Shown here piece by piece: positions 2,152 through 62,891 of a DNA stretch of 64,000 bases. Position numbers and translations under genes: made by a program. The stretch comes from an uncultured Oscillospiraceae bacterium (lineage in GTDB: Bacteria; Bacillota; Clostridia; Oscillospirales; Ruminococcaceae). Position 1 is the first letter of the stretch. Each line of letters starts with the position of its first letter. The notes under the pieces were generated by a model. It was not told where the DNA came from, made no database searches, and worked only from the letters and a program-made list of their open reading frames with translations. The stretch spans positions 1 to 64,000 of the forward strand of contig UQGL01000012.1 in assembly GCA_900540595.1 (NCBI GenBank). The letters are read 5' to 3'.

Positions 2152-4731
<2,580 letters not shown>

Positions 4732-4780
4732 TGTATCACCTTAACTCAATCTTACTTGAACTTACTAATTTTACTGCACC

Positions 4781-4875
4781 GTAGGGGCCGGGCATGCCCG
4801 GCCCTCAACTTTGCGTTATTGCCCACAAACGGATCGTTGCTTGTACGCTGCGGGCCGGGCATGCCCGGCCCCTAC
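4781..4875. repeat. REPIN-like pair of GTAG palindromes abutting the RAYT gene
   Basis: It begins GTAGGGGCCGGGCATGCCC and ends with the inverted copy finishing ...CCCCTAC, about 46 bp apart. Each arm is a perfect palindrome around GGGCATGCCC. The right end stops one base before the stop codon of the transposase at 4877. A GTAG tetranucleotide at the foot of a hairpin is the hallmark recognised by REP-associated transposases. Confidence 0.8.
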
Positions 4876-4876
4876 G

Positions 4877-5338
4877 CTATGCGTGTGGGTTATATTCATC
4901 CAAATCCCATTTCAACGGATTTTCCTGAATATATCTTTTAATTTCACAATACGCGTTTTCATCACGAATAATATGATCATAAAATGAACGCTGCCACAAT
5001 GTCACACCCGGATGTTCCACATGGAACATTTTGGACACATACGACTTGTAGCTTCCCACTACGGCGGACAAATTACATTGTTCCTGCGGAAAAACCAATA
5101 TCATATGAACATGATTTGGCATTACCACATATTCATCCACACCCACACCGGGAAAATGTCTGGAAATATCCTTTATTCCTTGTGCGGCCATTTGTCCGAC
5201 GACATTTGGTTTTCCTGCCGCGCCAAACACACATTGTTTATGATGCGCACATACGGTCACAAAATAATAATTTTCTCTTCTATAATCATAATTTTGCAAA
5301 CGGGGATTTTTGCGCGGGCATAAAATCGTATAATCCAT
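4877..5338 (-). CDS. REP-associated tyrosine transposase (RAYT, Y1_Tnp/IS200-like)
   Basis: RAYTs are domesticated relatives of IS200/IS605 TnpA that cleave single-stranded REP hairpins and are thought to spread REPINs. This 153 aa protein carries the family's HUH motif at His76-Val77-His78 (MPNHVHMI) and the nucleophilic tyrosine Tyr136 in RYIQENP; the N-terminal NYYFVTVCAHH strand is also typical. It is flanked by GTAG palindromes at 4781-4875 and 5377-5402. No IS left and right ends or TnpB are seen, which fits a RAYT and not an autonomous IS200. Base composition is clearly lower in GC than the neighbouring gyr genes, suggesting later acquisition. A parS-like site lies inside and encodes MFHVEH (residues 104-109). 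The ORF is intact. Confidence 0.88.
   Translation of the reverse strand: MDYTILCPRKNPRLQNYDYRRENYYFVTVCAHHKQCVFGAAGKPNVVGQMAAQGIKDISRHFPGVGVDEYVVMPNHVHMILVFPQEQCNLSAVVGSYKSYVSKMFHVEHPGVTLWQRSFYDHIIRDENAYCEIKRYIQENPLKWDLDEYNPHA
5013..5028. promoter_or_regulatory. parS-like ParB binding site inside the RAYT gene
   Basis: TGTTCCACATGGAACA is the exact reverse complement of the 16-mer at 859-874. Both differ from the classic parS core at the central step only. It lies about 5.6 kb from the dnaA-dnaN gap. Confidence 0.6.
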
Positions 5339-5376
5339 GATTCATACACCATAAACGGGGCGGTGGTTTTTATGCG

Positions 5377-5402
5377 GCGGGCCGGGCATGCCCGGCCCCT
5401 AC
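5377..5402. repeat. Single GTAG palindrome upstream of the RAYT gene
   Basis: GGGCCGGGCATGCCCGGCCC followed by CTAC, a one-armed copy of the same palindrome as at 4781-4875. It lies between the gyrB stop and the RAYT start, so the transposase is bracketed by its presumed substrate. Confidence 0.75.
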
Positions 5403-5421
5403 ACGGGCGGCGTATGATGTA

Positions 5422-7437
<2,016 letters not shown>

Positions 7438-7463: not shown

Positions 7464-7535
7464 GTAGGGAGGGGTCTTGACCCCTCCGTGTTTACGCGGC
7501 TGCCTGTATGCGGAGGGGTCAAGACCCCTCCCTAC
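7464..7535. repeat. REPIN-like GTAG...CTAC pair upstream of gyrB
   Basis: GTAGGGAGGGGTCTTGACCC and its inverted copy ending CCTCCCTAC, about 20 bp apart. It occupies the gap between the remB-like gene and gyrB, where a gyrB promoter would also be expected, so the repeat is likely transcribed as part of the 5' leader. Confidence 0.75.
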
Positions 7536-7839: not shown

Positions 7840-7934
7840 GTAGGGGCCGGGCACGCCCGGCCCTCCACTCTGCGTCATTGCCCGTCAGCGGGCAACCGCC
7901 CTACTGCTGCGGGCCGGACATGTCCGGCCCCTAC
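7840..7934. repeat. REPIN-like pair overlapping the recF stop codon
   Basis: GTAGGGGCCGGGCACGCCC at the left and an inverted GGGCCGGACATGTCCGGCC copy ending CTAC at the right. The stem changes are compensated on both sides of each palindrome. The terminal CTAC provides the TAG stop of recF on the minus strand (7931-7933). Confidence 0.8.
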
Positions 7935-9267: not shown

Positions 9268-9364
9268 GTAGGGGTCGGACATGTCCGACCCTCAGCCTTG
9301 CTGCAGCAGCCCTTTAGCCGGGCGGCTGATTTTATCTGCAGGGCCGGGCATGCCCGGCCCCTAC
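9268..9364. repeat. REPIN-like pair between dnaN and yaaA
   Basis: GTAGGGGTCGGACATGTCCG at the left, GGGCCGGGCATGCCCGGCC plus CTAC at the right. The two arms belong to different sequence subtypes of the same palindrome, as in the copy at 7840-7934. Confidence 0.8.
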
Positions 9365-12959: not shown

Positions 12960-13115
12960 ATGCCTTCCCCCTTGGGGGAAGGTGTCCGCGGCCCCGACCG
13001 CGGACGGATGAGGGAAAAGTGCCCCGCAGCTGTTCGGTACAGGGCCGGCAGGGGCAGGCGCGCCCCTCATCAGCCGCCTGCGGGCGGCAGCTTCCCCCCC
13101 TGAGGGGGAAGCCTT
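12960..13115. mobile_element. Family A MITE-like element upstream of rnpA
   Basis: Outer hairpins CCTTCCCC/GGGGAAGG and CTTCCCCC/GGGGGAAGC flank inverted GGATGAGGG and CCCCTCATC blocks; the whole element is an imperfect ~155 bp palindrome. It ends 15 bases before the rnpA start, so it lies in the rnpA leader. Confidence 0.65.
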
Positions 13116-13753: not shown

Positions 13754-13897
13754 AGGCTTCTCCCTTGGGGGAGAAGCTGTCCGCAAAGCGGACTGATGAG
13801 GGGAGAACCTCCCATCGCCGCCCCGCAAAGGGTTGGCCGGGCAAGCCCGCCCCTCATCCGGCCTTCGGCCACCTTCTCCCAAGGGAGAAGGCTTTTT
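13754..13897. mobile_element. Family A MITE-like element between yidD and yidC
   Basis: Begins with the hairpin GGCTTCTCCC/GGGAGAAGCT, then GACTGATGAGGGG, and after ~50 bp the inverted CCCCTCATCCGGCC and CCACCTTCTCCC/GGGAGAAGGC. It separates two genes that are usually close. Confidence 0.7.
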
Positions 13898-15008: not shown

Positions 15009-15028
15009 GAAAAGACGCCGCGCAACCG

Positions 15029-15118
15029 TAGGGGCGAGCATTGCTCGCCCGCGCCGTTGGCGGCTGTGAGGGAGTGTATCCCCTGCCGCCGTAGGGGCGC
15101 ATTCTATATGCGCCCGCC
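15029..15118. repeat. Two GTAG palindromes in direct orientation between yidC and jag
   Basis: GTAGGGGCGAGCATTGCTCGCC (15029) and GTAGGGGCGCATTC...GCGCCC (15091) are GTAG-headed hairpins in the same orientation, unlike the usual inverted pairing. Their stems differ in sequence but keep self-complementarity. Confidence 0.65.
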
Positions 15119-19827: not shown

Positions 19828-19974
19828 AAAAGGCTTCCCCTGAGGGGGAAGCTGTCACCGAAGGTGACTGATGAGGGGCAAGCCTGCCGTTATTCCTCTT
19901 TTGCGGGGTTGCTGCGGGAACACTGCCCCTCATCCGCCCTGCGGGCACCTTCCCCCTTGGGGGAAGGCTTTTTT
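19828..19974. mobile_element. Family A MITE-like element overlapping the 3' end of the ABC ATPase gene
   Basis: GGCTTCCCCTGAGGGGGAAGC hairpin, GACTGATGAGGGG, then ~45 bp and the inverted CCCCTCATCCG and CCTTCCCCC/GGGGGAAGG with T-run. The ATPase reading frame enters the element and stops inside it at 19890. Confidence 0.75.
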
Positions 19975-20849: not shown

Positions 20850-21112
20850 TCCCTTGTCAAAGGGAGGTGCCGAGCGTAAGCGAGGCGGAGGGATTCCTGC
20901 CCGGCCCGCAAGGGTATGGCAGGTACCCCTTTCCTTTGAACCGTAGAGCGGGGTGAGGGCAGGCCGCCCTACAATCGCCCGGCAGGCAGCTGCTGCCCTG
21001 CGGGGCGTCGAGGACGCCGCCCCCTACAACCGTAGGGGAGGGATTTATCCCTCCCGGGCATGTTGCGCCCGCCGCAATGCCCCGCGGCGGCCAGAGGACT
21101 GGCCGCCCTACT
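20850..21112. repeat. Composite block of GC-rich repeats between the ABC operon and trmO
   Basis: From left: a CTCCCTTTGACAAGGGAG-like hairpin with GAGCGTAAGCGAGGCGGAGGG (a type seen nowhere else in the window), then GTAG/CTAC palindromes including GTAGGGGAGGGATTTATCCC (21032) and GGCGGCCAGAGGACTGGCCGCC plus CTAC (ending 21111). No gene is supported here. Confidence 0.6.
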
Positions 21113-27882: not shown

Positions 27883-28024
27883 AAGGCTTCCCCCTTGGGG
27901 GAAGCTGTCTGCGAAGCAGACTGATGAGGGGCGGTCCGCCCATTGCTGCCCGTTACCGGGCTGCCCGGCACACCTGCCCCTCATCCGGCGCTGCGGCGCC
28001 ACCTTCCCCCAGAGGGGGGAAGGC
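27883..28024. mobile_element. Family A MITE-like element upstream of the DUF624-like gene
   Basis: AAGGCTTCCCCCTTGGGGGAAGC hairpin, CAGACTGATGAGGGG, ~45 bp, then CCCCTCATCCGG and CCACCTTCCCCC/GGGGGGAAGG. Ends 28 bases before the next start codon. Confidence 0.75.
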
Positions 28025-30225: not shown

Positions 30226-30332
30226 GTAGGGGCGGGGCTCTGCTCCGCCCGTGGCCGTTTGCCATGTGAGAAACTTTCCCGAAAAAGCGTTGCTATGTCA
30301 GGTCGGCGGGCGGAGCAGAGCCCCGCCCCTAC
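30226..30332. repeat. REPIN-like GTAG...CTAC pair (subtype GTAGGGGCGGGGCTC)
   Basis: GTAGGGGCGGGGCTCTGCTCC at the left and inverted GGAGCAGAGCCCCGCCC plus CTAC at the right, ~60 bp apart. Confidence 0.75.
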
Positions 30333-34853: not shown

Positions 34854-34931
34854 GTAGGGAGCGGTCTTGACCGCTCCGTGGAGCGCGGCGGCTGCCGCAC
34901 AGTGCCCGGAGGGGTCAAGACCCCTCCCTAC
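34854..34931. repeat. REPIN-like GTAG...CTAC pair
   Basis: GTAGGGAGCGGTCTTGACCG at the left and CGGAGGGGTCAAGACCCCTC plus CCTAC at the right; as at 2024-2100, the two arms carry different but internally compensated stems, in opposite order. Confidence 0.75.
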
Positions 34932-40429: not shown

Positions 40430-40533
40430 GTAGGGGCGATCATTGGTCGCCCGCCAATCTGGCGCAGCGATGTGTTTTACGGGAAGGCTTTTTCACAGGC
40501 AAACGGGCACGGGCGAGCAATGCTCGCCCCTAC
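40430..40533. repeat. REPIN-like GTAG...CTAC pair between regulator and kinase
   Basis: GTAGGGGCGATCATTGGTCGCCC at the left and GGGCGAGCAATGCTCGCCC plus CTAC at the right, ~55 bp apart. Confidence 0.75.
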
Positions 40534-44403: not shown

Positions 44404-44514
44404 AACGGCAGCCTGCCGCCGCAGAACCGGCTGCGGAAGCACAAACTTGTCCTTGTGTAAAACACAGTGGCGCGCCTGCTGCAAACAAAATTTTGAAAAG
44501 TAAACAAAAAACTC

Positions 44515-44543
44515 TTGAAAAATTTCTTTTGTGGTGGTAACAT
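44515..44543 (+). promoter_or_regulatory. gdhA promoter
   Basis: TTGAAA (44515-44520) and TAACAT (44538-44543), 17 bp apart, 40 bp before the start codon. The rest of the gap from 44404 holds AT-rich DNA without other visible signals. Confidence 0.55.
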
Positions 44544-44558
44544 GAAGGCGGTGTTTGA

Positions 44559-45929
<1,371 letters not shown>

Positions 45930-45982
45930 TACAAACGCAGACAGTCCCGGTAATGGACGGTAAACTTTTTTAGAAAAACCTA

Positions 45983-46011
45983 TTGACACACGCGCCGTGC
46001 TGTGGTATTAT
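45983..46011 (+). promoter_or_regulatory. Promoter of the initiator tRNA gene
   Basis: TTGACA (45983-45988) and TATTAT (46006-46011) with 17 bp spacing; a TATAAT also lies three bases further on. 38 bp before the tRNA. Confidence 0.8.
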
Positions 46012-46048
46012 AATCAAGCACCGTGAAACAAGCGCGTGTGTCATATAT

Positions 46049-46124
<76 letters not shown>

Positions 46125-46126
46125 AC

Positions 46127-46166
46127 AAAAGCTCGTTGAAACGACAAGTTTCAACGAGCTTTTTTC
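46127..46166 (+). terminator. Terminator of the tRNA-fMet gene
   Basis: AAGCTCGTTGAAAC and GTTTCAACGAGCTT, a perfect 14-bp stem with a five-base loop, followed by TTTT. Confidence 0.9.
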
Positions 46167-46237
46167 TACATCATGGAAAAAGTGGTAACAAGCTGGTAAC
46201 TTTGACCCCAAAATGACCCCAAAACGGGAAAACGACT

Positions 46238-46280
46238 GCGCCCGGGCGGTTGAGATTTTCAACCGCCCGGGCGCTTTTTG
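46238..46280 (+). terminator. Second, stronger hairpin downstream of tRNA-fMet
   Basis: GCGCCCGGGCGGTTGA and TCAACCGCCCGGGCGC form a 16-bp stem, followed by TTTTT. Between the two terminators lies a GACCCCAAAA direct repeat tract (46204-46225) of the type often found at the end of integrase genes. Confidence 0.8.
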
Positions 46281-46330
46281 TGGATAAATTTTGCGGAGTT
46301 GGCAGGTAAAAATACGAGCGGTCAGTGTAG

Positions 46331-46597
46331 TCAGCTTGCCTTGACGAGTACCAACACGCTGTTGTTTGGCACGACAATCTGTTCCTGTTTGGTGGGAATG
46401 GGAGGGTTCTTGTATTGGCGCAGGGCTTTTTCGATTTGCTGCTTGACTTCGAGCAGGGCAGCATCCAATGTAGGGGTCTGCACTTCAATTTTTGGAAAGT
46501 CAGGAACATGGGCGGTGCAGCCGTCCGGGGATAAGGTGCAGAGTACAGGATATCCCGAACAAACTGTCCATCTCAGGGCGTTTGTTGTAACCTTATA
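46331..46597 (-). pseudogene. HicB-like antitoxin fragment, 5' truncated
   Basis: A minus-strand frame open from 46597 to the TGA at 46331 has no ATG, GTG or TTG start in its first part. It reads YPVLCTLSPDGCTAHVPDFP, then [19 protein letters not shown] and PPIPTK, ending [13 protein letters not shown]. The pattern Y-P-(V/A)..D-G-C..HVPDFP, a helix after TPTLDAAL and a PIP turn is that of HicB-family antitoxins. No hicA toxin is visible next to it. Lower GC than its surroundings. It may be the remnant of an island that was inserted by the tRNA-fMet gene. From 46598 to 46810 nothing is recognised. Confidence 0.45.
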
Positions 46598-46810
46598 CTA
46601 TCGCAGGTTCAGGCGGGAAAGGCAATAGAAATTCTTACACAAAAACAGCAATAATTGTATGTCTTGCGCAAAATGTGTGCGCTTTTCATAAACGGAAAAA
46701 TTTGCAGGTTCCTCATAAAATCGGACATGGGAGAAAGCGCGCAACTGCGCTATGATAAGAGAAACCCACTGCCATGAAAAGCCCGATTTTTAAAGAGAGG
46801 ATGAAAAACC

Positions 46811-49800
46811 ATGAGAAAAGCAAAGCGCAGATGCCAACAGCTGGTTGCAGCGGCAATGTGCGTCGGTATGCTGGCCGGTATGGTCCCCACACAGGTCTTT
46901 GCCGAGGAAGCACAGCCGGCTGCAGCAATCGCGCAGCAGGAGCAGGCCCCTGCACCGTCCGCCAACGAGACGGAAACCCCTGCCCCGACTGAGGAACCGG
47001 CGGCCGAGCAGACCCCTGCCCCGACTGAGGAACCGGCGGCCGAGCAGACCCCTGCCCCGACCGAGGAACCGGCGGCCGAGCAGACCCCTGCCCCGACTGA
47101 GGAACCGGCGGCTAAGCAGACCCCCGCCCCGGCTGAGGAACCGGCGGCTGAGCAGACCCCCGCCCCGGCGGAAGAGCCTGCGGCCGAGGAGACCGCTGCA
47201 CAAGCTGCCGAGGTGATGAGCGCTGCGGTGCAGGACTCCGAGAATGAGAACTTCGGCAAGGTGCTGGAGGATCAAGACCTTGTTGCGGTGCGCAGCGGCG
47301 CTTCTCTGGTGGAGTCGCTGTCCACCGGCAAGCAGGTCAAGGTAACCGCTGAATGGATCAGCGGCAGCAACTCCGCTGTGGACGGCGGCGGTGCCCTGCA
47401 GGAGGGGGACGCCTTCTTCAAGCGCAGCCGCTTCACTCTGTATGCGAATGTCAAATTCGATGCTGCGCATGACAACACCTCGGCGCTGCTTGTCGGCAGC
47501 GATGCCGGTGCAAACTTCCGCATTGTGCCCTGCAAGACGGACGGCACAGCTGTGCTGAAGGTCAACAACGGTACGGAGCACAAGCTCTCCAAGGCGATGA
47601 CCGCCGGAGAATGGAACGCCCTGGCCCTTGTCTATGCCGAGAATGACACCGAGGGCACGGTGGCCGTCTATCTGAACGGCGAGGAGGTCCTGCCTGCCAC
47701 CGGCATCGGCTTCAAGCTCAGCGAGAAGTCCGGCATCGTGGGCGCCGTGGGCGCCACCTTCGGCACCGGCTTTATGCGCACCGGCCTGTATGACGAGCTG
47801 GTCGTGACCGGTGCGGCGGACGCCGAGGCCGCCAAGGTCGAGACTGCCGCCCGCAAGGCGGCGGCCGATGCGGTTGTCGCGGTGGACGGCGTTGTCACCG
47901 TCACCGGTGCGGAGGTCGAGCAGGCCGCCCAGAATGTCAACGGCTGGACCTATAAGGGGCTCGGCATGCTGAACGGCAACTCCACCAGCAACCTGCTGCT
48001 TGACTACAAGGCCGAAAGCCCTGACGCCTACTGGGCCATGATGCGCTATCTGTTCGGCGGTGACTACCCGCTGTTCAGCAACATCAAGATGGAGATGGGC
48101 AACGACGGCAACAACTCTACCGGTGCCGAGGCCTGCACCATGCGGTACGAGGACGAGGAGGCAGATGCCTCCCGCTCGCCCGGCTTTGTCATGGCCGCCG
48201 ATGCCAAGACGATCAACCCGAATGTCAAGGTGTCGATCCTGCGCTGGGGCTGCCCGAACTGGGTCAACGCCTACAAAGGCACAGACTGGTATGCCGCCAA
48301 CTACAAATGGTACAAGGAAACGATCTTTGACGCCTACGAGAAGTACGGCTATGTCGTGGATTACATCAACCCCGACACGAACGAGACCGGCAATCCTGAC
48401 AGCGGGATCATCAAATATTTCGCCAACGCCATTGCCAACGAGACGGATTTCCCGGAATATTTTACCGAGGAGGCCAAGCAGGCCTACCGCAGCATCAAGA
48501 TCGTGGCCTCGGATGAGAACAAGGGCCTGAAGATCGTACCCATGATGCGCGGTGACAAGGACCTGTATGACGCGGTGGATGCCATCGGCTTCCACTACCG
48601 CACCAACGCCACCGATGACTATATCAAGATGGCCGATGTGGATGACAAGGAGGTCTGGTACAGCGAGGGCTGTGCGACCTTCGGTTATTCCGAGCTGCAG
48701 GAGAACAAGACCGCCGAGTACGGTGCAGGCACCATCGGCGGCTACCAAAGCCCGCTGGCGCTGCTGGACAGCTTCCCCAACGCCTTTGTCGGCTCCCGCC
48801 GGACGATGTACATGTTCCAGCCGGCCATCGGCGCCTTCTACGAGGGCATCCAGTACGGCCATAAGGAGCTGCTCTCCGCCCGCGACCCGTGGAGCGGCTA
48901 TATCCACTATGACCCTGTGCTTTACATGCTGGGCCATATCACCAAGTTTGCCAAGACCGGCTGGGAGAATGCAAGCAACACCGCCGGTATCTGGCGCGTG
49001 CTGCCGGGCGCTACCTTTGCGTCCTTCGGTGCCAGCTCGAACGAGCATGCCACCGCAGGCATTGACGGAAACGCCAGCTATATGACGCTGGCAGCACCCG
49101 ACAAGCAGAACTTCTCCACAGTGTTCGTCAACAACACCCGCAACGAAAAGACCTTTGCCGTCAAGCTGTCCGACATGGCGCTGAAGGCCGAGGCCCTGCA
49201 CATCTGGACGACCGCGACCGACAGCTATATGCAGAAGGGCGAGGACGCCAAGATCGAGGGCGGCATCGCCTATGTGACCGTACCGGCCTACAGTGTTGTG
49301 ACCGCCACTACGCTGGATACTGAGCCGGAGCGCTTCCCCACTGAGGACGGCAGCGGCGATTACATCCAGACTGCGACCCGCGCGGTGCTGGACACCGATG
49401 CGACCGGCAAGAAGGCTGATACGGCCGATGACTACCTCTACGCCGATAACTTCGACTATAAGGAGGAGGAACTCAACTACATCGTGGACCGCGGCAATGA
49501 GCCCCGCTACATGCTGGACACCCACGGCGCATGGATCGTGGAGAACGGCCGCTTAAAGCAGGAGAACGCCGCCGGCGTGACCCAGTGGAACGGCGGTGAC
49601 CCGGCTACCATCGTGGGGGACTGGCGCTGGATGGACTACAGCGCTTCGGTGGATATGGAGCTGCCCAACGCCGATGCCAACCGGTATGAGCGGCTGACCA
49701 TCCGTGCGCAGACCGGCATGAACTGGAACAACAGCGGCTACACGCTGGAGCTCAACGGCGCGGGCAGCTGGAAGCTGTTCCGCATCGGCTCCGCTGTGGC

Positions 49801-51949
49801 CAGCGGCAGTGTTGCCAAGGATGATGCTGGCAAGTACAATGTAAAGCTCATCGGCTTGGGCGACACCGTCTATGCCTATATCAACGGCACGCTTGTCACC
49901 AGCTACACCGATGCAAATCCGATGCTCTCCGGCCGTGTGAAGATCAGCTCCAACTGGACGCAGGTCTATGCGGACAATCTGGAAATCAGGACCGTCAAGG
50001 GCGGCATTCCCTACGCCACTGCCATGATCGATGGTCAGGACGATGGCGTTGTCTATGAGGGTGCATGGGCCATCAACAACCCGGGCGGCGGCAGCGCTGA
50101 CAACTGGTACCGCACGATGTCTGAGGCCAGCACCGCCGGTGCGGCGTTCACCTTTGCGGTGGACGGCAGCGGCTTTGCCATCATGGGCAGCAACAACGGC
50201 TCCGCTGTGATCGATGTCTATGTGGACGGCGTGATGAAGGTTGAAAACGCCGCCACCAAGGCCGCCCACACCCGCGGTGAGGCGTACATTCTGTCCGACC
50301 TTGCCGCCGGCAAGCACACTGTCAAGGTTGTGCTGAAATCCGGCACGCTCAAGGTGGACGCGCTGAACACCATCGGCAACCGCCTGCCTGCCGCCGAGGG
50401 TGCAGTTACCGAGGTGCTGACCAAGCTGCCTGCGCTGGAAAGCTATGTCACCGGCAGCGGCATCGGCAGCCTGCCCGCCGCGGTCGAGGTCAAAAAGACG
50501 GACGGCACCACCGCGACCCTGCCTGTGGATTGGAATGTGGATATGAACGCACTGAATGCCAATGCCTACGGTGCGGCCGAGATCCAGGGCACCGTCAAAG
50601 GGGCCGTCAACCCGCTGGGCGAGAAGCTGACTGTCAGTGTCAAGATCGGCGAAGTTATCCCCGGCGATACCGTGGTATTCATCGACAGTGTGGCCGGTGA
50701 TCCGGCAGCCGTCAGCGGCGGCACGACCGAGAGCTATACGCTGTACAAAAAGGCTCTGGGCAGCAAGCTGCTGAATGAAGCCTTTGACCAGCGCAAGACC
50801 GCCGATAATGACTGGGGTCTTGTCGATACGGATGCCGGTACCAAGGGCTACAGCTCCACCGCTGACAAGACCGCGACCGGCATCTACGGCCGCGAAAATA
50901 AAGCGGGCGAGACCCTGACCTACGCCCTGACCCTGCCTGCAGGCAGCTACATCCTGACGAGCGCCCACCATGAATGGTGGGGCCAGAACCGCCCGATGAC
51001 CGCCGTGGTCACCGATGCCGAGGGCAACGCCCTGAGCGAGACCGCGACCCTGAACCTGAACGGCAGCAGCGGGGATATCCTCAACAAGGCTGTGTTCAAG
51101 TTGGACGGTCAAAAAACCGTTTACTACACGGTGACCGCCACCGGCAGCCAGGCACCTGTCATCAGCTGGCTGGGCGTGCAGCGTCAGCCCGCCGAGACGA
51201 AGGTCGTTGTGACGAAGGGCCTGACCAGCGTGCCGGAGGCACTGCAAAATACAGCGTTTACTACAACCGAAAAAATTGAGAAAGAGCTGGTAAAGCAGCT
51301 CTCCGATGAGATCAGCGGCTGCAAGGTGAGCATCTACGATGTGAAGCTGATGCTGGATTTCGGTGACGGTAGCCTGATCGAAGCCGAGGAAAACAGCTTC
51401 CCTGCAGGGGGCATGGATGTCTGGTTCGACCTGCCCGATGGTGTGACCGCAGAGAATTTCAGCCAGTTCGATATTGAAGTGGCGCACATGCTCTGCACCC
51501 GCGACCATGCCGGTGAGGTTGAGCTGCTGAAAGACCCGGAGCTGGACGCTGCGAACGGCAAGCTCAAGGTGCATGTAGGCTCCTTCTCTCCCTTTGCCAT
51601 CGGCTGGAAGGCCAAGCCTGCCTCCGGACCGGTGGTGACGCCGGGCACCGGCAGCACCGGCACGACCCCCGGCGGCAGCACCGGTAGCAACACCGGCAGC
51701 AACACGAATGCCGGCAACAGCAGCAATACCGCAGCAGGCAATGCGGGCGGCACCGCCGCTGCTGCAAGCGGTACCGCCAAGCCTGCAGGCGCAGCCGATA
51801 ACAAGGCTGCGGTGCCTGCCAAGAGCGGGCTGATTCCCCAGACCTCGGACAGCTTCCCGCTGCTCCCGGTCGCAGGCATTGCACTGGTCAGTCTGGCAGC
51901 GGTCGGCCTGCTGGCCCTGCTGAAAAAGAAAAAGCACGAAACGCGCTGA
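46811..51949 (+). CDS. Cell-wall-anchored GH59 galactocerebrosidase-like multidomain protein
   Basis: 1712 aa. Signal peptide ~1-31 (ending TQVFA), then six 12-residue [12 protein letters not shown] repeats (~56-127). A LamG-like domain (~165-330) comes first, then a GH59 catalytic region (~375-830) with candidate acid Glu525 in NPDTNET and nucleophile Glu619 in VWYSEG. A second jelly-roll (~900-1060, LEIRTVKGG end), a CBM-like stretch ([13 protein letters not shown], ~1078-1190), Ig-like segments and a Gly/Ser/Asn linker follow. The C-terminus has a sorting signal: LIPQTSD (from 1674), hydrophobic helix, [10 protein letters not shown]59 enzymes cleave beta-galactosides such as galactosylceramide; the true substrate here is open. 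Two terminators follow. Confidence 0.85.
46976..47191 (+). repeat. Six tandem 36-bp repeats encoding a Pro/Thr/Glu wall-spanning linker
   Basis: Units begin at 46976, 47012, 47048, 47084, 47120 and 47156, each starting ACCCC(T/C)GCCCCG and encoding TPAPxEEPAAxx. The first three are identical or nearly so; the last is most diverged, as expected when expansion occurs from the 5' side. Confidence 0.9.
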
Positions 51950-51980
51950 GCCTCTGACGATATAAGATCGTGTTTGCACA

Positions 51981-52007
51981 GTCCCCGCCCGGAAACGGGC
52001 GGGGATT
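51981..52007 (+). terminator. Terminator of the GH59 gene
   Basis: GTCCCCGCCC and GGGCGGGGAT stem with loop GGAAAC; only a weak T-run follows (TTTGTTG). Confidence 0.6.
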
Positions 52008-52022
52008 TGTTGCTGCTATGAC

Positions 52023-52060
52023 AAAAAGCCGCACACACTGCGAGGTGTGTGCGGCTTTTT
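52023..52060. terminator. Bidirectional terminator
   Basis: AAAAAGCCGCACACAC and GTGTGTGCGGCTTTTT, a perfect 16-bp stem with a six-base loop, between the convergent GH59 and discoidin-like genes. Confidence 0.9.
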
Positions 52061-52075
52061 GCGGCTTGGCGGGGG

Positions 52076-52870
52076 TTACGGTGCCTCGGTGCCCCATGCC
52101 TCAAGCTGGGTCAGCGCGGGGAACGGGGACGGGTCCTCGGCCTTTTTCAGCTCAAACAGCTTCAGGCTTTTTGCGGTGCGCGGGGTGATCGCAAAGGTCT
52201 GCGGGGCGGCGGTCTTGGTCAGCTGCAAAACCTCGCGGCTGCCGTCATCAAACGCCACGGTCGCCTGCGTCCAGTAGCTGTCGTGCGGGAAATCCGCGCG
52301 CAGCGTCAGGCGCAGCTCGTCCACGATCACGGCGCGGCCGAAATCCAGCGTCAGCGCGGCATTGGGGTCGCGGTTAATGCCCCAGCTCTGGTACGGCCAG
52401 GTGCCGTGGGCGTCATTCTCATACACGCCGTCCACGGCGTTGCGGGCGGCAAACACGGCCTCGCCGCGGGTCTCCACATTGGCGGACGCATGGGGGAAGA
52501 AGCCGGTATCACCGTGTTCGTCATAGGGGTTGAACGCAAGGTTGCGCCGCGCCTTGATCTCCGCCTCGGTGGCAAAGCGGGCGCGGATGATGTGGCAGCA
52601 CCCGGAAAAGCTTTTGGGGCTGTAGGTGATGGCCTGCTCGCCGAACGGAATGTGGAAGTTGATCTCCCGCTTGACGACATAGACGAGCGCCGGGGCCATC
52701 GTGTCCTCAAACTGGATCACGATATACTGCCCGGGTGTGCCGATCTCCAGTGCCACGCGGTCCCCCGGCTTGTAGGCGTTCATGTACACAAGGCTGACCT
52801 GCTCCGCACCGGGCGCGGTCATGAGGGTCTGGCCCTCGGCGTCAAGGATCTTTAACTTCAAAAGCTCCAT
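52076..52870 (-). CDS. Discoidin (F5/8 C)-like carbohydrate-binding protein
   Basis: 264 aa from the ATG at 52870 (MELLKLKILDAEGQTLMTAP) after GAAAGGA. No signal peptide. The N-terminal ~100 residues form a beta domain (YKPGDRVALEIGTPGQYIVIQFEDTMAPALVYV). The C-terminal ~140 have an F5/8 C layout: RRNLAFNPYDEHGDTGFFPHASANVETR, AARNAVDG, SWGINRDPNAALTLDFGRAVIVDELRLTLRADFPHDSYW and a C-terminal strand ITPRTAKSLKLFELKKA. It lies 13 bp after the lyase gene in the same operon. Its role, perhaps binding the imported sugar or a partner, is inferred. Confidence 0.65.
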   Translation of the reverse strand: MELLKLKILDAEGQTLMTAPGAEQVSLVYMNAYKPGDRVALEIGTPGQYIVIQFEDTMAPALVYVVKREINFHIPFGEQAITYSPKSFSGCCHIIRARFATEAEIKARRNLAFNPYDEHGDTGFFPHASANVETRGEAVFAARNAVDGVYENDAHGTWPYQSWGINRDPNAALTLDFGRAVIVDELRLTLRADFPHDSYWTQATVAFDDGSREVLQLTKTAAPQTFAITPRTAKSLKLFELKKAEDPSPFPALTQLEAWGTEAP

Positions 52871-52883
52871 GGGTATCATCCTT

Positions 52884-54698
52884 TCAGAAAACGGTAAGGG
52901 CAAGCTGCCCGGTGAAATACAGGCGGGTGCGGTAGAGGGTGTCCGGCCAGGCCTGACGCAGCCGGGCATCGGTGACGGCTACCGCCTCGGTCACGATGCG
53001 CACAGCCCCATCCGCACGGGCGGCCGCTAAGGTGCCGAACTGCACGGTGCTGCCGTCTGCGGCGGGCTTTTCAACGCTCATCAGCGTCAAGGCGACCTCG
53101 CCGGGGTAGTCGGTCTCATCGCACAGGGTCAGCCCATCGGCAGTCAGGCGCACGGCGCGGCGGTAGTACCCCAACCCCGGCACGGCGCCGTAGGCAGGGG
53201 CAAGGTCCATTGCGATGCTGTCCAATGTGTCGGCCACGGCGACCCCGGCAGCGGCAAAGGCCGCACCGGGCTGCTGCTGATACGCCGCACCGTCGGGGTC
53301 AAATTCCGGCAGGTTGTGCCAGCCGGACTGCATCGTCCAGATCTCATACCGCTGCGGGCTGAAGGTCTTTTTGCTGTAGGTCTCCACACCCACATCGATC
53401 AGGAGCGGTGCCCCGTTTTTATACAGCGTCACGCTGCCCACATCGTTGTGGTTGTGGCTGTCGGCGTTGCTGCCCGCCTTGGCGCCCAGTGCATAAGCGC
53501 CGCGGCGGCAGACGAGAATACCGACGCTCGGATACCAGACATCCCCCGGCGCGGCAGGGGATGCGCGCAGGGCAAAGGCAGTCACCTCCTGCTCGGCCAG
53601 TGCGGTCTGAAGATGGTAAAACAGGTTGATGCCCTCGCTGTCATCGGGGTGGTGCAGTCGGTCGGGGTCAGGGGTGCGCAGCGTTTCAGCCCAGTCGTGG
53701 GCGGCCAGCGTCATCAGCGGCAGGCTGCCGACCCGCTTGCCGAACAGGTACTCCCGCACGCCGCGGGCCCCGGCCAGCGGGCTGCAGTCAGCAAAATTCA
53801 GGTAGTACGGCCCGGCAATGTGCATGTTGACAATGTACTCGGCCATGTTTTTGATCTTCGGCTCAGCCCAGATGTCGTCAAAGACGCCGGGGGCGATTTT
53901 GCACAAGAGGTCCAGCGCGTTGAACATCGTCAGCGCGGCGTGGCGGTAGTACTGTGCGCCCTCGCTGCAGCAGCCGTCCGGGCCGTAATCCTTCAAAAAG
54001 CAGTCAAGGCTGTAGGCGGCCTGCCCGACATAGGCGGGCAGCGCCTCAACCGGGGCGCACTGCGCGGCGGCCAGCAGGACATTCTGGGTACACCACGGTG
54101 TCCAGTTGCACATCGGCTCGTCATCGCGGCCCATCCACCAGAAATGCTCGGTACGGTAGGGCGTCAGGATGCGGCGCTCGACCTCATGCTGCAGCCGTGC
54201 CGCCAGCCCGGGCGCGTATTCGTCAAGGGCGGCACCCAGCAGGCCGTACACAGTGGCCAGCAGTGCGCCGGTCTCGGCGGCAAACAGGTCCACGATCGGC
54301 CGCGTTACATCGGGCAGCGGCAGCTGGGGCGTGTCGCGGATATAGCTGTTGTGGGCGGGCAGCTGCCACGCGCTTTCCTCGCAGATCGCCCATGCGGCAT
54401 CGGCGATAGCGGGCAGATAGCTGCCGTCCCCGGTCACGGCCTCGGCCATTGCCAGCGCACAGAGGGTGCGGCGGCGGGCAAAATAGGCGTGTTCCCATCG
54501 GGCGCGGTCTCCGTTTTGGGTAAATTGCAGCCACAGCGAGAGCGGCAGCTGCGGCACTGCGGCGGCATCGCGCAGGGCGGCCTGTCCCGCCGCCTGCCAG
54601 CGCGCAGCGCCCGGCAGGGCCTGCCACGCCGCGCGGTCGCGGTAAGGCGGGTAAAGCGTGGGGCGCATCGCGTCAAAGCGCGGCGTCATCCTTTGCAT
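52884..54698 (-). CDS. Heparinase II/III-family polysaccharide lyase-like protein
   Basis: About 604 aa from the ATG at 54698 (alternatives at 54704 and 54668; GAAGGGA fits best with 54698), overlapping the regulator gene. An alpha-toroid domain (~15-360: WWMGRDDEPMCNWTPWCTQNVLLAA, KDYGPDGCCSEGAQYYRHAAL, EYIVNMHIAGPYYLNFADCSP) precedes a beta-sandwich heparinase_II_III domain with the diagnostic SNADSHNHNDVGSVTLYKNGAPLLIDVGVETYSKKTF. No signal peptide, so it acts on oligosaccharides inside the cell. His/Tyr of the toroid and the HNHND metal segment are intact. The substrate (heparan-, hyaluronan- or alginate-like uronate) cannot be read off. Confidence 0.85.
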   Translation of the reverse strand: MQRMTPRFDAMRPTLYPPYRDRAAWQALPGAARWQAAGQAALRDAAAVPQLPLSLWLQFTQNGDRARWEHAYFARRRTLCALAMAEAVTGDGSYLPAIADAAWAICEESAWQLPAHNSYIRDTPQLPLPDVTRPIVDLFAAETGALLATVYGLLGAALDEYAPGLAARLQHEVERRILTPYRTEHFWWMGRDDEPMCNWTPWCTQNVLLAAAQCAPVEALPAYVGQAAYSLDCFLKDYGPDGCCSEGAQYYRHAALTMFNALDLLCKIAPGVFDDIWAEPKIKNMAEYIVNMHIAGPYYLNFADCSPLAGARGVREYLFGKRVGSLPLMTLAAHDWAETLRTPDPDRLHHPDDSEGINLFYHLQTALAEQEVTAFALRASPAAPGDVWYPSVGILVCRRGAYALGAKAGSNADSHNHNDVGSVTLYKNGAPLLIDVGVETYSKKTFSPQRYEIWTMQSGWHNLPEFDPDGAAYQQQPGAAFAAAGVAVADTLDSIAMDLAPAYGAVPGLGYYRRAVRLTADGLTLCDETDYPGEVALTLMSVEKPAADGSTVQFGTLAAARADGAVRIVTEAVAVTDARLRQAWPDTLYRTRLYFTGQLALTVF

Positions 54699-55956
54699 CA
54701 ACATACGATCCCTTCATTCTCTGGATATATTCGCGGGGGCTGGCTCCCTCCAGCTTTTTGAACACCTTGCTGAAATAGAAGGCGCTGTCAAAGCCTACCC
54801 GGCTGCTGACCTCATAGATCTTCAGGTCGGTGGCGGCCATCAGCTCCTTGGCGGCGGCGATGCGGGCGGTGGTGACATACTCCACAAAGCCGCGCTCACT
54901 GTTTTGTGCAAAAAGCTGGCTCAGGTAGTTGGGGCTGAAGTTGAACACCGCAGCTACATCGTTGAGGGTCAGCTTTTCGGCCAGATGTGCCCGGATGTAC
55001 TGCTGCACCTGCGCCACGACCTGTGCGCGGTGATCCAGCGGGGTGTTGGGCTTCTCATGGTAAAAGGCAAGGGGAGACTCGCTGCGCAGCAGCTGCTGGG
55101 CGGCCAGTGCATCCTGCCGGCTTTGGGAGATCTGCAGAATGTCCGGCACCGCGCGGCCCACGGCCCAGTAGATCTGGGAGCTGAAATAGTTGTAAAGGAT
55201 CTGCCCGGTGGCCTGCAGGGCGGGGGTCAGCGCGGTCTCGGGGTCCTCGCCCTCCTGCAGGGGCAGCAGCGCCGAAAAATGCTGCAGATCCATGCCGATC
55301 ACGCGGCAGGGACGGTATTTGGGCAGCGTTTCAGCCGCCATGCGGGTGACGCCGGTGCTCAGGGTGAGCAGCTGCTCGGTCGAAAGCTCCGGGGTGCGGA
55401 TGCTGCCCAGCGCCACGACATACTGCGGGGCGTGGAAGTCCAGCCCCAGCTCGGCACACTGGCGGTCAAAGGCGGCGCGGTCGGTCAGCAGACCGCCGTA
55501 CAGCTGCAAAAACAGCCGGTCGCGGTAGCTGTCCATGCTCACGGCGGGGGCAGCGGGGGCCTGCAGCCGCCGCTCCTTCTCCACAGCGGCGCGGGCCTTG
55601 TCCAGCGCGGCGGTCAGGCTCTCGGCAGTCAGGTCGATCTTGACAAGGTAGTCCACCACGCCCAGCCGCATGCTGCGCTTTACATAGTCAAATTCCTCAT
55701 AGCTGGTCAGCATGATGAATACCGGCAGGGCAGAGCCGTCCTTGTGGCAGCTCTCCGCCAGCGTAAAACCATCCATGACCGGCATACGGATGTCGGAAAC
55801 AACGATGTCGGGGTAGGTCTCTCCGATGGCCTTGAGGGCCTCGGCCCCGTTGCGGGCGGTGCCGACCACGGTGTAGCCAAGCTCGGCCCAATTCAGCATG
55901 CCCTGCATACCGATGAGGACCAGCGGCTCATCATCGACCAAGAAAATTTTTGTCAC
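54673..55956 (-). CDS. YesN-type response regulator with AraC DNA-binding domain
   Basis: 427 aa. Receiver domain with DDE (8-10), phosphoacceptor Asp55 (VVSDIRMPVMDGF) and MLTSYEEF; a ~150 residue middle region; and a C-terminal AraC/XylS double HTH (LTLNDVAAVFNFSPNYLSQLFAQN ... KIYEVSSRVGFDSAFYFSKVFKKLEGASPREYIQR). The partner kinase is encoded 92 bp upstream. Such pairs sense sugars outside and activate a neighbouring importer and catabolic genes. Confidence 0.95.
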   Translation of the reverse strand: MTKIFLVDDEPLVLIGMQGMLNWAELGYTVVGTARNGAEALKAIGETYPDIVVSDIRMPVMDGFTLAESCHKDGSALPVFIMLTSYEEFDYVKRSMRLGVVDYLVKIDLTAESLTAALDKARAAVEKERRLQAPAAPAVSMDSYRDRLFLQLYGGLLTDRAAFDRQCAELGLDFHAPQYVVALGSIRTPELSTEQLLTLSTGVTRMAAETLPKYRPCRVIGMDLQHFSALLPLQEGEDPETALTPALQATGQILYNYFSSQIYWAVGRAVPDILQISQSRQDALAAQQLLRSESPLAFYHEKPNTPLDHRAQVVAQVQQYIRAHLAEKLTLNDVAAVFNFSPNYLSQLFAQNSERGFVEYVTTARIAAAKELMAATDLKIYEVSSRVGFDSAFYFSKVFKKLEGASPREYIQRMKGSYVDAKDDAAL

Positions 55957-56047
55957 GGTAACACCTCATTTTGGGGGATGCCTTCCTGTTGGGGAGAGGC
56001 AGGGGTATAAACCCATGGGCGGGCAGACGCGGCAAAGCCGGGCTGCA

Positions 56048-57883
56048 TCAGTCTGCTTTGCGGACGGCTTCCCCTGCGGGGGAGGCCTTTTTGGCGTCCG
56101 GCAGCCGCACCGTTACGGTCGTGCCTACGCCCGGTTCACTCTCGATGCGCAGGCCGTAGGCATCGCCGAAGCTGTATTGCAGCCGGCGGTGAACATTCCA
56201 GATGCCCACATGGCGGTATTTGGCGGCGGCCTCCTCGGGGCCGGGCTCCTGCAGGGCTTTGGCGGCCTGCGCAGGGGTCATGCCCACACCGTCATCGCTC
56301 AGGAGGATCAGCACATCGCCGTTTGCAGCGTCCCGCTCGACCCGCAGGGTCACCTCACCGGCGCTGCCCTTCGGCTCAATGCCGTGGAAGATGGCGTTCT
56401 CGACCAGCGGCTGCAGCGTAAAGCGGGGGATCAGGCAGCTGTGGGTAAGGTTTTCGTCCTCGATATAGCTGACATCAAGGGTGATCGTGCCGCCGTAGCG
56501 GTACTGCTGGATCGTGAAATAGTCGTTGAGCAGGGCAAACTCCTCATACAGCGGCACAAGCCGCTCATTGCCCTTGGAAACGCTTTTCAGCAGGCGGGAG
56601 AGCGCCGTGACCATCTCGGCAATGCCGGGCGCATGCTGGATGGTAGCCATCCACTTGATGCTGTTGAGGGTATTGTAGATGAAATGCGGGTTGATCTGGT
56701 TTTGCAGCATCCGGTATTCAAGGTCCTGCTTTTGCTTTTCGTCCTCAAGGCGGCGGTCCATCAGGGCGGTGATGTTGCCCGACATTTTATTGATGCCGCG
56801 GCCGATGTCGCCCAGCTCGTTGTCCCACTCAATGGCCGGGTCAGCGGAAAAATCGCCGCTGCCGACCGCCTCGATCCGGCTTTGCAGCGCCGTGATCGGG
56901 CGGGCGATCATCCTGTGCAGAAGAAATGCCAGCGCACTGCCCAGCGCCAGAATGGCCGCCAGACTGAATATGAGTGAGGCCGACAGATAGGGAATCTGCC
57001 GCTGCAGCGGTCCGTTGGGCAGGACCTCGATCAGGTAGAGATCATGCACCCCGATGGGATACCGCACGATAAGCTGGGTGTTGACGCCGCTGCCGCGCTC
57101 GTATACCTCGGTCAGGCTGTCGAGGGTCTCGGCGTCAAAGGGGCGGGTGTCCTTATAATAAGTACGGTCGGTGTCAAGCTCGGTCAGGGTGTTGTTCTGC
57201 ACGGTGTAGATATGCTCGCCCATCTCCCACAGCAGCTTCCCGCCCTCTGACAGGGTAAAGCCGCGCAGCGGCGCCGTGATGGCGGAAGGGGAAACAAAGA
57301 TGCAGACATGCGCTGTGCGGTCGGTGCCGGGCAGGGTCAGGGCGCGGCAGATCGGGATCGTCTGCGCCGCCTGAGTGGTCAGCGCCAACGGGTCGCGGGT
57401 GATATACGCCCAGCCGTAGCTGGCCTCGTTGTAGCCGGGGATCGTCTGCAGCAGCTCCGGGGTCAGCGCCACGACATTGGTGGCAGCCGTGCCGAACATC
57501 ATCGGCCGCCCGGCGGCGTTGATGAGCATGAACCGCTGGATATACGGCAGCGTGCGCATGGAGTTGTATTTGGCTGAGATCATCGGGTACATCGAAAGCG
57601 CCTGATTGTTGCCGGCGGAATCGGTCAGCAGGTAGGTGCGCATTGACGGATTGTAGGCGCACCAGCTTGCCAGATCGTCCACCTCGTCAAGGTCGCGGTA
57701 GATGGCGGCGGCTGCAGTCTGCAGGGCATACTCGGCATTCAGCAGGGTGGTACGCTCCCACTCAGCGTTGAGCTGGTGCATGTTGCTGACTGTGATGACG
57801 ATCGACACGCCCAGCGTGAACAGCAGGGTCAGCGTCAGCACCCGCAGCTGCAGGCTGCCCCGATGCAGGTTGAATTTGCCCAT
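56048..57883 (-). CDS. YesM-type sensor histidine kinase
   Basis: 611 aa from ATG 57883 (MGKFNLHRGSLQLRVLTLTL) with AAGGAG five bases upstream. TM1 is at ~13-33 and TM2 at ~300-325 (LIFSLAAILALGSALAFLL), enclosing a ~265 residue dCACHE-like sensor. HAMP with MIARPITALQSRIEAVGSGDF, then His_kinase with MLQNQINPHFIYNTLNSIKWMA and HATPase with LLSDDGVGM. The last residues (AKKASPAGEAVRKAD) run into a short GC-rich hairpin like the family A end. First gene of a regulator operon with its own TTGACA promoter, divergent from the ABC importer. Confidence 0.94.
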   Translation of the reverse strand: MGKFNLHRGSLQLRVLTLTLLFTLGVSIVITVSNMHQLNAEWERTTLLNAEYALQTAAAAIYRDLDEVDDLASWCAYNPSMRTYLLTDSAGNNQALSMYPMISAKYNSMRTLPYIQRFMLINAAGRPMMFGTAATNVVALTPELLQTIPGYNEASYGWAYITRDPLALTTQAAQTIPICRALTLPGTDRTAHVCIFVSPSAITAPLRGFTLSEGGKLLWEMGEHIYTVQNNTLTELDTDRTYYKDTRPFDAETLDSLTEVYERGSGVNTQLIVRYPIGVHDLYLIEVLPNGPLQRQIPYLSASLIFSLAAILALGSALAFLLHRMIARPITALQSRIEAVGSGDFSADPAIEWDNELGDIGRGINKMSGNITALMDRRLEDEKQKQDLEYRMLQNQINPHFIYNTLNSIKWMATIQHAPGIAEMVTALSRLLKSVSKGNERLVPLYEEFALLNDYFTIQQYRYGGTITLDVSYIEDENLTHSCLIPRFTLQPLVENAIFHGIEPKGSAGEVTLRVERDAANGDVLILLSDDGVGMTPAQAAKALQEPGPEEAAAKYRHVGIWNVHRRLQYSFGDAYGLRIESEPGVGTTVTVRLPDAKKASPAGEAVRKAD

Positions 57884-57945
57884 AAAGGCTCCTTGTATAG
57901 TATAATAAGGTGAGAAGCAGCTTTTTGAATGGTCCTGTATATACA

Positions 57946-57975
57946 TATATACCCTATCAGACAGGCTGCTGTCAA
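57946..57975 (-). promoter_or_regulatory. Promoter of the YesM/YesN operon
   Basis: On the minus strand TTGACA (57970-57975) and TATATA (57946-57951), 18 bp apart, ~65 bp before the kinase start. The remaining divergent gap to 58238 has no clear plus-strand promoter; only a TATGAT (58155-58160) is seen, which fits an activator-dependent start. Confidence 0.6.
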
Positions 57976-58238
57976 GAATAAAACTGTACAAATATGACAA
58001 AATAGCGCGTATTTGCTTGTCTATAACTGTAAGAAAGATGAATATTGCAGGTTTCTTGAAATATTACATGTTTTGGCGGTCTCCTTTGCGGAACTGCCGT
58101 AAATATTGCAAAAGTAACCAAAAATATACCATCGCTTTCGGCGGGCAGCGGGTGTATGATAATGACAACGAAAGGGACAGGCCCTCTGCAGAAAGCCTTC
58201 CCGCAAGTAACGATTTCTTTTTAGGAGGAGAAATTAGT

Positions 58239-59576
58239 ATGCGTAAAATGCAAAGATTCGCAGCCCTTGGGCTGGCCGGCACCATGGCCCTGAGCCTGGC
58301 AGCCTGCGGCGGCAGCTCCGCTTCCACCACGGACTCCACCCCTGCAAGCACGGCATCTTCCACCGAGGCCACCGCAGAGAGCACGGCCTCCGGCGACAGC
58401 GTCACCCTGAACTGGGCGCTGTGGGACAAGGACTCCACCGCCTACTGGGCAGCGCTGGCAGACGGCTACATGGCCAGCCACCCCGGCGTCACCATCGAGA
58501 TGACCGACCTTGGCTCCACCGATTACATGACCCAGCTGGCCACCCAGCTGGCCGGCGGCAACGGCGAGCTGGATGTCCTCTCCATCAAGGACATCCCCGG
58601 CTACTCCAACCTGATCAACCTCGGTATGCTGGAGCCGCTGAGCGGCAAGCTGACCACCGATGAGAGCAAGTTCAACGGCGTTCTCGATCAGCTGACCGCC
58701 GAGGACGGCAACTACTACGCTGTTCCGTTCCGCTCTGACTTCTGGGTCGTCTACTACAACAAGGACATCTTCGATCAGGCCGGCATCGAGTACCCCACCA
58801 ACGATATGACGATGGCCGACTTTGACGCCAAGATCCGCGAGGTCTACGAAAAGACCGGCATCTACGGCAACATCTACCACACCTGGCGCTCCACCACGAC
58901 GCTGTTCGGCATTCTGGACGGCAAGAACACCGTCATTGACGGCAACTACGACTTCCTGAAGCCCTACTACGAGCAGGTCATGGCCGAGCAGACTGACGGC
59001 GTCATCCCCAACTACGGCGAGCAGAAGACCGCCAACCTGCACTACTCCGGCGCGTTTGAGAACGGTCAGGCCGCTATGTGCAACATGGGCTCCTGGTTCA
59101 TCGCTACCCTGCAGAAGTACAACGCCGAGGCTTCCGCCAACGGTGTCCAGCCCGTCAACTTCGGCATCGTCAAGTATCCTCATCCGGACGGCGCACCTGC
59201 CGGCTCCACGCTGGGCACTGTGACCAGCCTGGCCGTCAACGCCAACTCCGAGAAGAAAGAGGCTGCGCTTGACTTCGTGAACTGGTGCGCTTCTGAGGAA
59301 GGCGCCAAGGCCGTTGCCGCAGTCGGCACCTTCCCCGCCGTTGCCAGCGACGAGACCAACAAGATCATCTCCTCCACCGAGGGCTTCCCCTCTGACGAGA
59401 ACTCCCTCGAGGCACTGAACACCACCGCCATCTACCTTGAGATGCCGCTGTCCGACAAGGCCTCCGAGATCGAGACCATCCTGAACACCGAGCATGACGC
59501 CATCATGACCGAGAGCGAGACCATCGACGAGGGCATCGCCAACATGAACGAGCAGGTTCAGGCACTGCTGGGCTGA
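58239..59576 (+). CDS. Extracellular sugar-binding lipoprotein of an ABC importer (family 1)
   Basis: 445 aa from ATG 58239 after TAGGAGGAG. Lipobox ALSLAAC with the modified Cys at ~22 and a Ser/Thr-rich spacer (to ~55). The mature part follows the family 1 solute-binding layout: VTLNWALWDKDSTAYWAAL, LATQLAGGNGELDVLSIKD, YYAVPFRSDFWVVYYNKDIFDQAGI, FENGQAAMCNMGSWFI. It delivers oligosaccharide to the two permeases that follow. Codon use indicates high expression. No ATPase gene is present; a shared MsmK-type ATPase elsewhere is likely. Confidence 0.93.
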   Translation: MRKMQRFAALGLAGTMALSLAACGGSSASTTDSTPASTASSTEATAESTASGDSVTLNWALWDKDSTAYWAALADGYMASHPGVTIEMTDLGSTDYMTQLATQLAGGNGELDVLSIKDIPGYSNLINLGMLEPLSGKLTTDESKFNGVLDQLTAEDGNYYAVPFRSDFWVVYYNKDIFDQAGIEYPTNDMTMADFDAKIREVYEKTGIYGNIYHTWRSTTTLFGILDGKNTVIDGNYDFLKPYYEQVMAEQTDGVIPNYGEQKTANLHYSGAFENGQAAMCNMGSWFIATLQKYNAEASANGVQPVNFGIVKYPHPDGAPAGSTLGTVTSLAVNANSEKKEAALDFVNWCASEEGAKAVAAVGTFPAVASDETNKIISSTEGFPSDENSLEALNTTAIYLEMPLSDKASEIETILNTEHDAIMTESETIDEGIANMNEQVQALLG

Positions 59577-59651
59577 TTTGAGTGATCACGGCCCCTGCAA
59601 GAAACATTTGCAATCTTCCAACTTTTTCATAAGTTTTCCTTCTTCTTCGTA

Positions 59652-59679: not shown

Positions 59680-59714
59680 CTCTTATGCAGCTAACCCCCG
59701 AGGAGGTATGATCC

Positions 59715-62889: not shown

Positions 62890-62891
62890 CA

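Follow-up and report, generated by a model that had tools for sequence, protein, structure and literature searches.

A multi-family REPIN/RAYT system in a Gemmiger-like Firmicute, viewed from a RAYT gene between gyrB and gyrA

Palindromes that begin with GTAG bracket a small open reading frame between gyrB and gyrA in an uncultured Oscillospiraceae bacterium, raising the question of whether a REP-associated tyrosine transposase (RAYT) and its repeats are established in a Firmicute, and whether the palindromes around the gene belong to it. We analysed a stretch of 64,000 nucleotides (hereafter the window) together with 35 congeneric genomes. A sequence-only reading had proposed a REPIN/RAYT system at this position, and protein family, fold, tag enrichment and the distribution among congeners all bore it out. 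The best named RecF relative of the window's organism came from Gemmiger sp. (81%), a genus of Clostridia. We judge this REPIN/RAYT system of a Gemmiger-like Firmicute to be real and to comprise several families, and we infer mobility for its repeats and specificity for its enzymes.

The RAYT-A gene and the palindromes of the window

The gene, which we call RAYT-A, and its context are as follows.

2152-4731, minus strand, gyrA, context of RAYT-A
4877-5338, minus strand, RAYT-A gene (REP-associated tyrosine transposase), 153 aa; H76, H78, Y136; GC 39.6%, GC3 0.36
5422-7404, minus strand, gyrB, context of RAYT-A

The protein matched Y1_Tnp in Pfam (6e-10) and scored 77.4 bits against REP_Tyr_transpos (NF047646, NCBIfam), just under the cut-off of 80, with transpos_IS200 far below at 29.5 bits. 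The HVH at 76-78 and Tyr136 given in the sequence-only reading were recovered in our alignments, in which H76, H78 and Y136 supply the HUH motif and single catalytic tyrosine of the Y1_Tnp fold. The predicted structure had a mean pLDDT of 90.9, and its top Foldseek match was 4er8, E. coli RAYT with a REP hairpin (E 4.9e-9, TM 0.70, 23% identity in the Foldseek alignment). W94, Q95, E100, H101 and R104 are tied to GTAG in E. coli TnpAREP, as described in PMC6006769; the 4er8 alignment, matched by spacing, kept W94, Q95, H101 and R104 in RAYT-A, with E100 replaced by D. Public relatives of the protein were 71-97% identical over nearly full length, in clusters of up to 1098 member sequences. Sequence and model together support RAYT-A as a RAYT/TnpAREP with a Y1/HUH fold, one that would bind and cut REPs.

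The palindromes of the window are listed below.

2024-2100, REPIN, family B arms, by REP pattern and pair layout
4781-4804, plus strand, REP, family A, beginning GTAG, outer copy of the REPIN downstream of RAYT-A
4852-4875, minus strand, REP, family A, inverted partner, 24-bp unit missing from G001
4781-4875, REPIN formed by these two, GTAG outward, one 95-nt hairpin, z -8.9
5379-5402, minus strand, REP, family A, GTAG palindrome upstream of RAYT-A
7464-7535, REPIN, family B; same site holds B in G007 and a family A REPIN in G001
7840-7934, REPIN, family A; same site in G007 holds a 28-bp double-foot REP
9268-9364, REPIN, family A, missing from G001, where the spacer is down to a few bases
15028-15050, plus strand, REP, family C
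15091-15115, plus strand, REP with a different arm sequence, in direct order with the 15028 copy
21002-21027, minus strand, REP with the sequence found inside RAYT gene G001:C90
21032-21111, REPIN-like pair, unlike arms
30226-30332, REPIN-like pair
34854-34931, REPIN, family B arms, by REP pattern and pair layout
40430-40533, REPIN with family C arms, its first copy being a variant

The gene is bracketed as proposed: three family A REPs occupy the 690-bp gyrB-gyrA spacer, and of the inner ones one follows the RAYT-A stop codon after 1 bp and the other precedes its start codon by 40 bp. Family A arms start with GGG and end with CCC, giving three G-C basal pairs, and the four REP pairs of the window that were folded gave strong folds. 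The window REPs are perfect palindromes, as described for group 3 in PMC8266576, and have no E. coli bulge. At least ten further inverted pairs had been counted, of which eight outward pairs stand (2024, 7464, 7840, 9268, 21032, 30226, 34854 and 40430). Two looser cases make up the rest: the copies at 15028 and 15091, read as a pair at 15029, are in direct order, and 62892, missed by our script, is by eye a single degenerate palindrome with a tag-like foot at both ends. Another palindromic repeat, with arms like CTTCCCCC or CTTCTCCC, occurs at 29-384, 12963-13112, 13756-13891, 19833-19967 and 27886-28023; its feet are often AAAG or GCCA, none is GTAG, and it stands outside the REP families.

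The idea that these palindromes form one system did not survive comparison with the genus. Counterparts of family B (2024, 7464, 34854), of family C (15028, 40430) and of the 21002 copy lie within three other RAYT types, so RAYT-A is not the sole candidate driver of the window's repeats.

GTAG tags and REP families across the genus

A degenerate REP pattern found 12 matches in the window and none in 100 shuffles. When hairpins were defined by an arm of at least 8 and a loop of at most 4, a GTAG foot was present at 17 of 49 in the window (0.31 expected, 55-fold) and at 61 of 214 in 400 kb of G001, the nearest relative compared (1.23 expected, 50-fold). A lack of GTAG enrichment at hairpin feet, named beforehand as a refuting outcome, was therefore not what we saw. 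Enrichment was also seen in 13 sampled RAYT-bearing congeners (228 of 706 hairpins, 3.8 expected), these densities being upper estimates because several of the sampled regions came from contigs known to hold REPs or a RAYT. For G027, and for G005, which has no detected RAYT, the sampling was distributed along the chromosome. Among 11 sampled congeners without a detected RAYT, there was no enrichment (1 of 207 hairpins, 0.95 expected). RAYT-bearing genomes varied: no GTAG-footed hairpin was found in the sampled 20 kb of G008 or 10 kb of G030, G032 had one in 40 kb, and G027 had two in 400 kb (0.54 expected), with 19 family D copies genome-wide. GTAG faced outward in 34 of 51 neighbouring REP pairs from the window and the 400 kb of G001. 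Dispersal of the REPs that flank RAYT-A was evident in both: G001 held 114 REP matches, and density there was 73.9 per 100 kb outside open reading frames of at least 150 aa (46 REPs) versus 4.7 inside them (16 REPs), a 16-fold difference.

A profile built from 22 RAYTs matched 19 of the 35 congeners, two of which (G025 and G013) gave a weak or partial match only. Several unlike RAYTs occur per genome, with matches at up to five places (G028 and G030), some being fragments; two fragments sit at contig starts in G030. The G018 RAYT is followed downstream by 12 GTAG hairpins arranged head-to-tail with a period of about 31 bp (L004:1983-2349).

We counted six REP families in these genomes using exact patterns, that of family A being loose, and regarded a RAYT as matching a family if it carried, or was bracketed by, that family's sequence. 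At least five copies were present in 14 of 16 genome-family combinations with a matching RAYT versus 12 of 194 without one, shared ancestry being ignored. Likewise, one or more of the searched families reached five copies in 14 of 19 genomes with a detected RAYT versus 3 of 16 without (Fisher p 0.002, shared ancestry again ignored). Equal copy numbers in relatives without a RAYT were mostly not observed, with exceptions: family D had 10 copies in G005 and 12 in G035, and G024 (71% complete) had 31 copies of family G and 23 of an arm variant of family A, no RAYT being detected in any of the three. The family A copies of G004 and G032 were counted without being listed. Family A, the window's main family, was commonest in G007, with 210 copies and no RAYT-A. 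A strict rule of one family for each RAYT is rejected as universal because of family A in G007 and family D in G005 and G035; for the RAYT-F genes of G028 and G008, no dispersed exact REP copies were found. The Gemmiger-like organism of the window has several REP families, not one system, and dedicated RAYT enzymes appear to spread them.

Individual sites differ between genomes. The site at 7464 carries family B in the window and G007, and family A in G001. The site at 7840 carries a REPIN in the window and G001, the second REP being shortened in G001, and in G007 a 28-bp double-foot REP (L237:6663-6690). Central deletion was suggested as the origin of double-foot REPs in PMC6006769, and this site offers comparative support for it. 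At 9268, the difference from G001 exceeds the REPIN, and we rejected the reading of this G001 site as cleanly empty.

REP pairs inside RAYT genes

Many congeners have a RAYT gene that itself contains two in-frame REPs. We compared 103 RAYT genes, namely that of the window, 22 from loci of the genome search and 80 from named relatives, the latter being the best 80 of at least 510 among 591 stretches found with a search profile (A1) rich in two-site genes. The 23 other rows are intact-looking genes; L001, L002, L014, L016, L017, L019, L020, L031 and L033-L037 were left out as broken, partial, repeated or distant, broken RAYT rows being kept as broken. Both sites were present in L014, L016 and L031 among those left out, and one site in L002, L017 and L020/L035. 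A neutral RAYT sample drawn from the class with NF047646 was not used; its best matches were mostly frames of about 250-300 aa belonging to a different group.

Both REP sites were present in 36 of the 103 genes, the second only in 32, the first only in 5 and neither in 30, the window's RAYT-A having neither. The 36 two-site genes comprised 17 of the 23 non-named rows (16 of the genus, where they make up 16 of 22 rows, and 1 of the order) and 19 named loci; among the named RAYTs, as the best 80 of at least 510, these were 19 of 36 from Bacillota and 0 of 44 others (7 without a stated phylum). The first REP starts in codon phase 0 in 35 of 36 genes (GTA GGG, Val-Gly), and the phase following the second is identical in 31 of 36. 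The pair spans 158-239 bp (median 194) and encloses the HUH codons in all 36 genes. In the model of RAYT-B, the first REP corresponds to residues 34-41 and the second to 94-102, predicted mostly as loops flanking the HUH strand.

The two REPs of a gene match each other. Over nine arm bases, 8.75 agreed on average and all nine agreed in 27 of 36 genes; random re-pairing of genes gave 5.03, and never more than 6.11 in 10,000 trials. The REPs were more conserved than the remaining gene in all nine pairs examined, as in the gyr-spacer RAYTs of G027 and G029, where 48 of 48 REP bases are identical against 59.7% for the remaining gene. The earlier view that structure and not sequence is selected was too strong, for arms are matched between the REPs of one gene and conserved within families. 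In a tree with the REP residues masked, the two-site state was clustered without forming one clade (18 changes versus a shuffled mean of 30); this tree has few columns and many open forks, and the number of gains and losses is unsure because well supported branches force only 4 changes.

In L014, the RAYT of the gyr spacer of G023, three forward REPs, separated by two inverted ones, are read through without interruption of the frame, as if, judging by the arrangement, a REPIN had been inserted at the first site and then repeated in frame.

It is conceivable, and we propose it tentatively, that the Clostridia RAYT gene is its own specificity record. The substrate REPIN would be carried in two surface loops round the HUH motif, with one REP in each. 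Enzyme and recognised hairpin would then evolve jointly, be transferred horizontally as one and found a fresh REP population in every new host. The gene might even be a substrate of its own product, in that cleavage at the internal REP pair would excise the HUH codons.

Exchange of the gyr spacer and the nature of the locus

We matched gyrA in 33 of the 35 congeners by its first 120 residues and retrieved 30 loci, at 27 of which both gyr ends were visible; a RAYT occupied the spacer in 10 of the 27, and the spacer of G018 had a short RAYT remnant. Eight gyr-spacer RAYTs formed one clade (support 96/89) with the window's RAYT-A falling outside, yet a single clade including RAYT-A passed the AU test (p 0.41), and for this reason we refrain from proposing that one RAYT type replaced another in the spacer.

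Comparison of the window with G001 delimited one further feature.

4721-5432, tract without substitution relative to G001, 712 bp, flanked by gyrA and gyrB sequence 7-10% diverged

The spacer was identical at 666 of 666 positions, whereas gyrA differed by 9.8% (450 bp) and gyrB by 7.2% (597 bp), the last gyrA difference being at 4720 and the first gyrB difference at 5433. The chance of no differences in 688 bp at the flank rate is about 3e-28, and among ten other genome pairs only the G005-G035 spacer (98.2%, no RAYT) was as conserved as the gyr flanks. The sole difference within the tract was a 24-bp gap, a REP with its tag at about 4851-4875, present in the window and missing in G001. One REP was accordingly gained or lost very recently; slippage could account for it because a 2-bp CG repeat flanks the unit. 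GC3 was 0.36 for RAYT-A versus 0.80-0.83 for gyrA and gyrB, and 0.49-0.75 for 20 other RAYTs of the genus. We read RAYT-A as an AT-rich, probably foreign gene recently exchanged between species, by homologous exchange together with the whole gyrB-gyrA spacer.

Movement of the tract as a transposing unit would suit its length of only 712 bp. We consider it improbable: homologous recombination at the gyr genes is the better explanation because identity continues past both REPs, taking in the 49 bp ahead of gyrA as well as 11 bp of either gyr gene, and the location is the same in the window and G001. Separately, 44447-64000 is 99.35% identical to G001 versus 74-95% in the other aligned blocks of the window; by its identity, this segment too was apparently shared recently, and it greatly exceeds the RAYT tract in size.

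Very probably, the locus is a REPtron, that is, a RAYT (TnpAREP) with its REPs, in a Gemmiger-like member of the Clostridia that has several such families, operating by the following copying mechanism. The RAYT would bind a single-stranded REP hairpin through its 5' GTAG guide, and Tyr136 and the HUH metal site would cut and rejoin the REP DNA, such that outward-facing REP pairs (REPINs) would be copied at a low rate into intergenic DNA. Every RAYT type would serve its own REP arm sequence. In many Bacillota RAYTs that arm is fixed in the gene by two in-frame REPs, encoding surface loops that flank HUH. RAYT-A is an AT-rich member without in-gene REPs, and its action would be on family A in particular.

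The main competing account is that RAYT-A is a newcomer or a spent gene, the family A REPs around it having been spread by another RAYT, for example of the B or C types. The 210 family A copies of G007, which has no RAYT-A, would agree with this, as would the AT-richness, recent exchange and lack of in-gene REPs of RAYT-A; three family A REPs so close to the gene, with tags outward as in other REPtrons, and the intact catalytic and guide residues make it rather unlikely. Transcription terminators or mRNA stabilisers with no relation to the RAYT would also be mostly intergenic and strongly folded, as the palindromes are. Terminators do not need a GTAG foot, and the enrichment of that foot, seen in RAYT-bearing congeners but absent from the others, together with the in-frame REP pairs with matched arms inside RAYT genes, renders this account very improbable. 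An ordinary IS200/IS605 insertion sequence with hairpin ends would share the Y1 fold and the hairpins on both sides, but is scarcely credible given that G001 has a single copy of RAYT-A (full-length, 100%) against its 114 REP matches and that REP_Tyr_transpos outscores transpos_IS200 so clearly.

The REPtron reading places the locus close to known systems. By its described features, it resembles subclass 2.4 of TnpAREP/RAYT as Quentin and colleagues describe it (PMC6006769): an HUH-Y1 protein without C-terminal extension (153 aa in RAYT-A), long canonical GTAG REPs with G-C feet, double-foot REPs and scattered occurrence over phyla. RAYTs of the genus also share with that subclass an in-frame in-gene REP between HuH and Y, which is missing in RAYT-A. 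In-gene REPs are described there as generally lying between HuH and Y, and an 8-aa insertion is placed where helix alphaB ends. Unlike in that description, many Bacillota genes here have a second, upstream REP between the first strand and the first long helix, the outward pair encloses the HUH codons, and the window's RAYT has neither REP; part of this layout may already be shown in the supplements of PMC6006769. Similarly, Di Nocera et al. 2013 (PMC3733652) describe GTAG palindromes in outward dimers mostly 20-100 bp apart, with several families per genome and family-specific REPtrons, and Pseudomonas fluorescens REPINs (PMC3116915) are outward REP doublets that form one hairpin and are dispersed between genes. 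Also close are E. coli TnpAREP (4er8) and the S. maltophilia and Marinomonas REPtrons (PMC8266576), with GTAG needed or favoured for activity. GTAG repeats are given for Proteobacteria, Cyanobacteria, Chloroflexi and the PVC group in PMC3733652, the main text of which does not use the word Firmicutes. In the open-access literature, judged partly by title and with subscription papers and preprints outside the scope, we found no account of REPIN/RAYT in Firmicutes/Bacillota. RAYT with Clostridia returned PMC6006769 alone, RAYT with Faecalibacterium or Gemmiger returned only gut microbiome or virome surveys as judged from the listing, and extragenic palindromic with Faecalibacterium prausnitzii returned papers unrelated by title.

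Collectively, these observations add a Gemmiger-like genus of Firmicutes to the range of GTAG REPIN systems. PMC8049555 describes RAYTs as present in single copy and inherited vertically, and PMC6006769 takes a patchy distribution to fit horizontal transfer; the several unlike RAYTs per genome and the recent cross-species exchange seen here are unlike the former, and the exchange of RAYT-A bears on vertical inheritance versus frequent transfer. The in-gene REP pairs touch on two questions, namely how a RAYT retains a REP family of its own and what lets RAYTs persist. These pairs are a natural tag of cognacy across many RAYTs: the likely substrate can be read from the gene, which makes enzyme-REP specificity directly testable.
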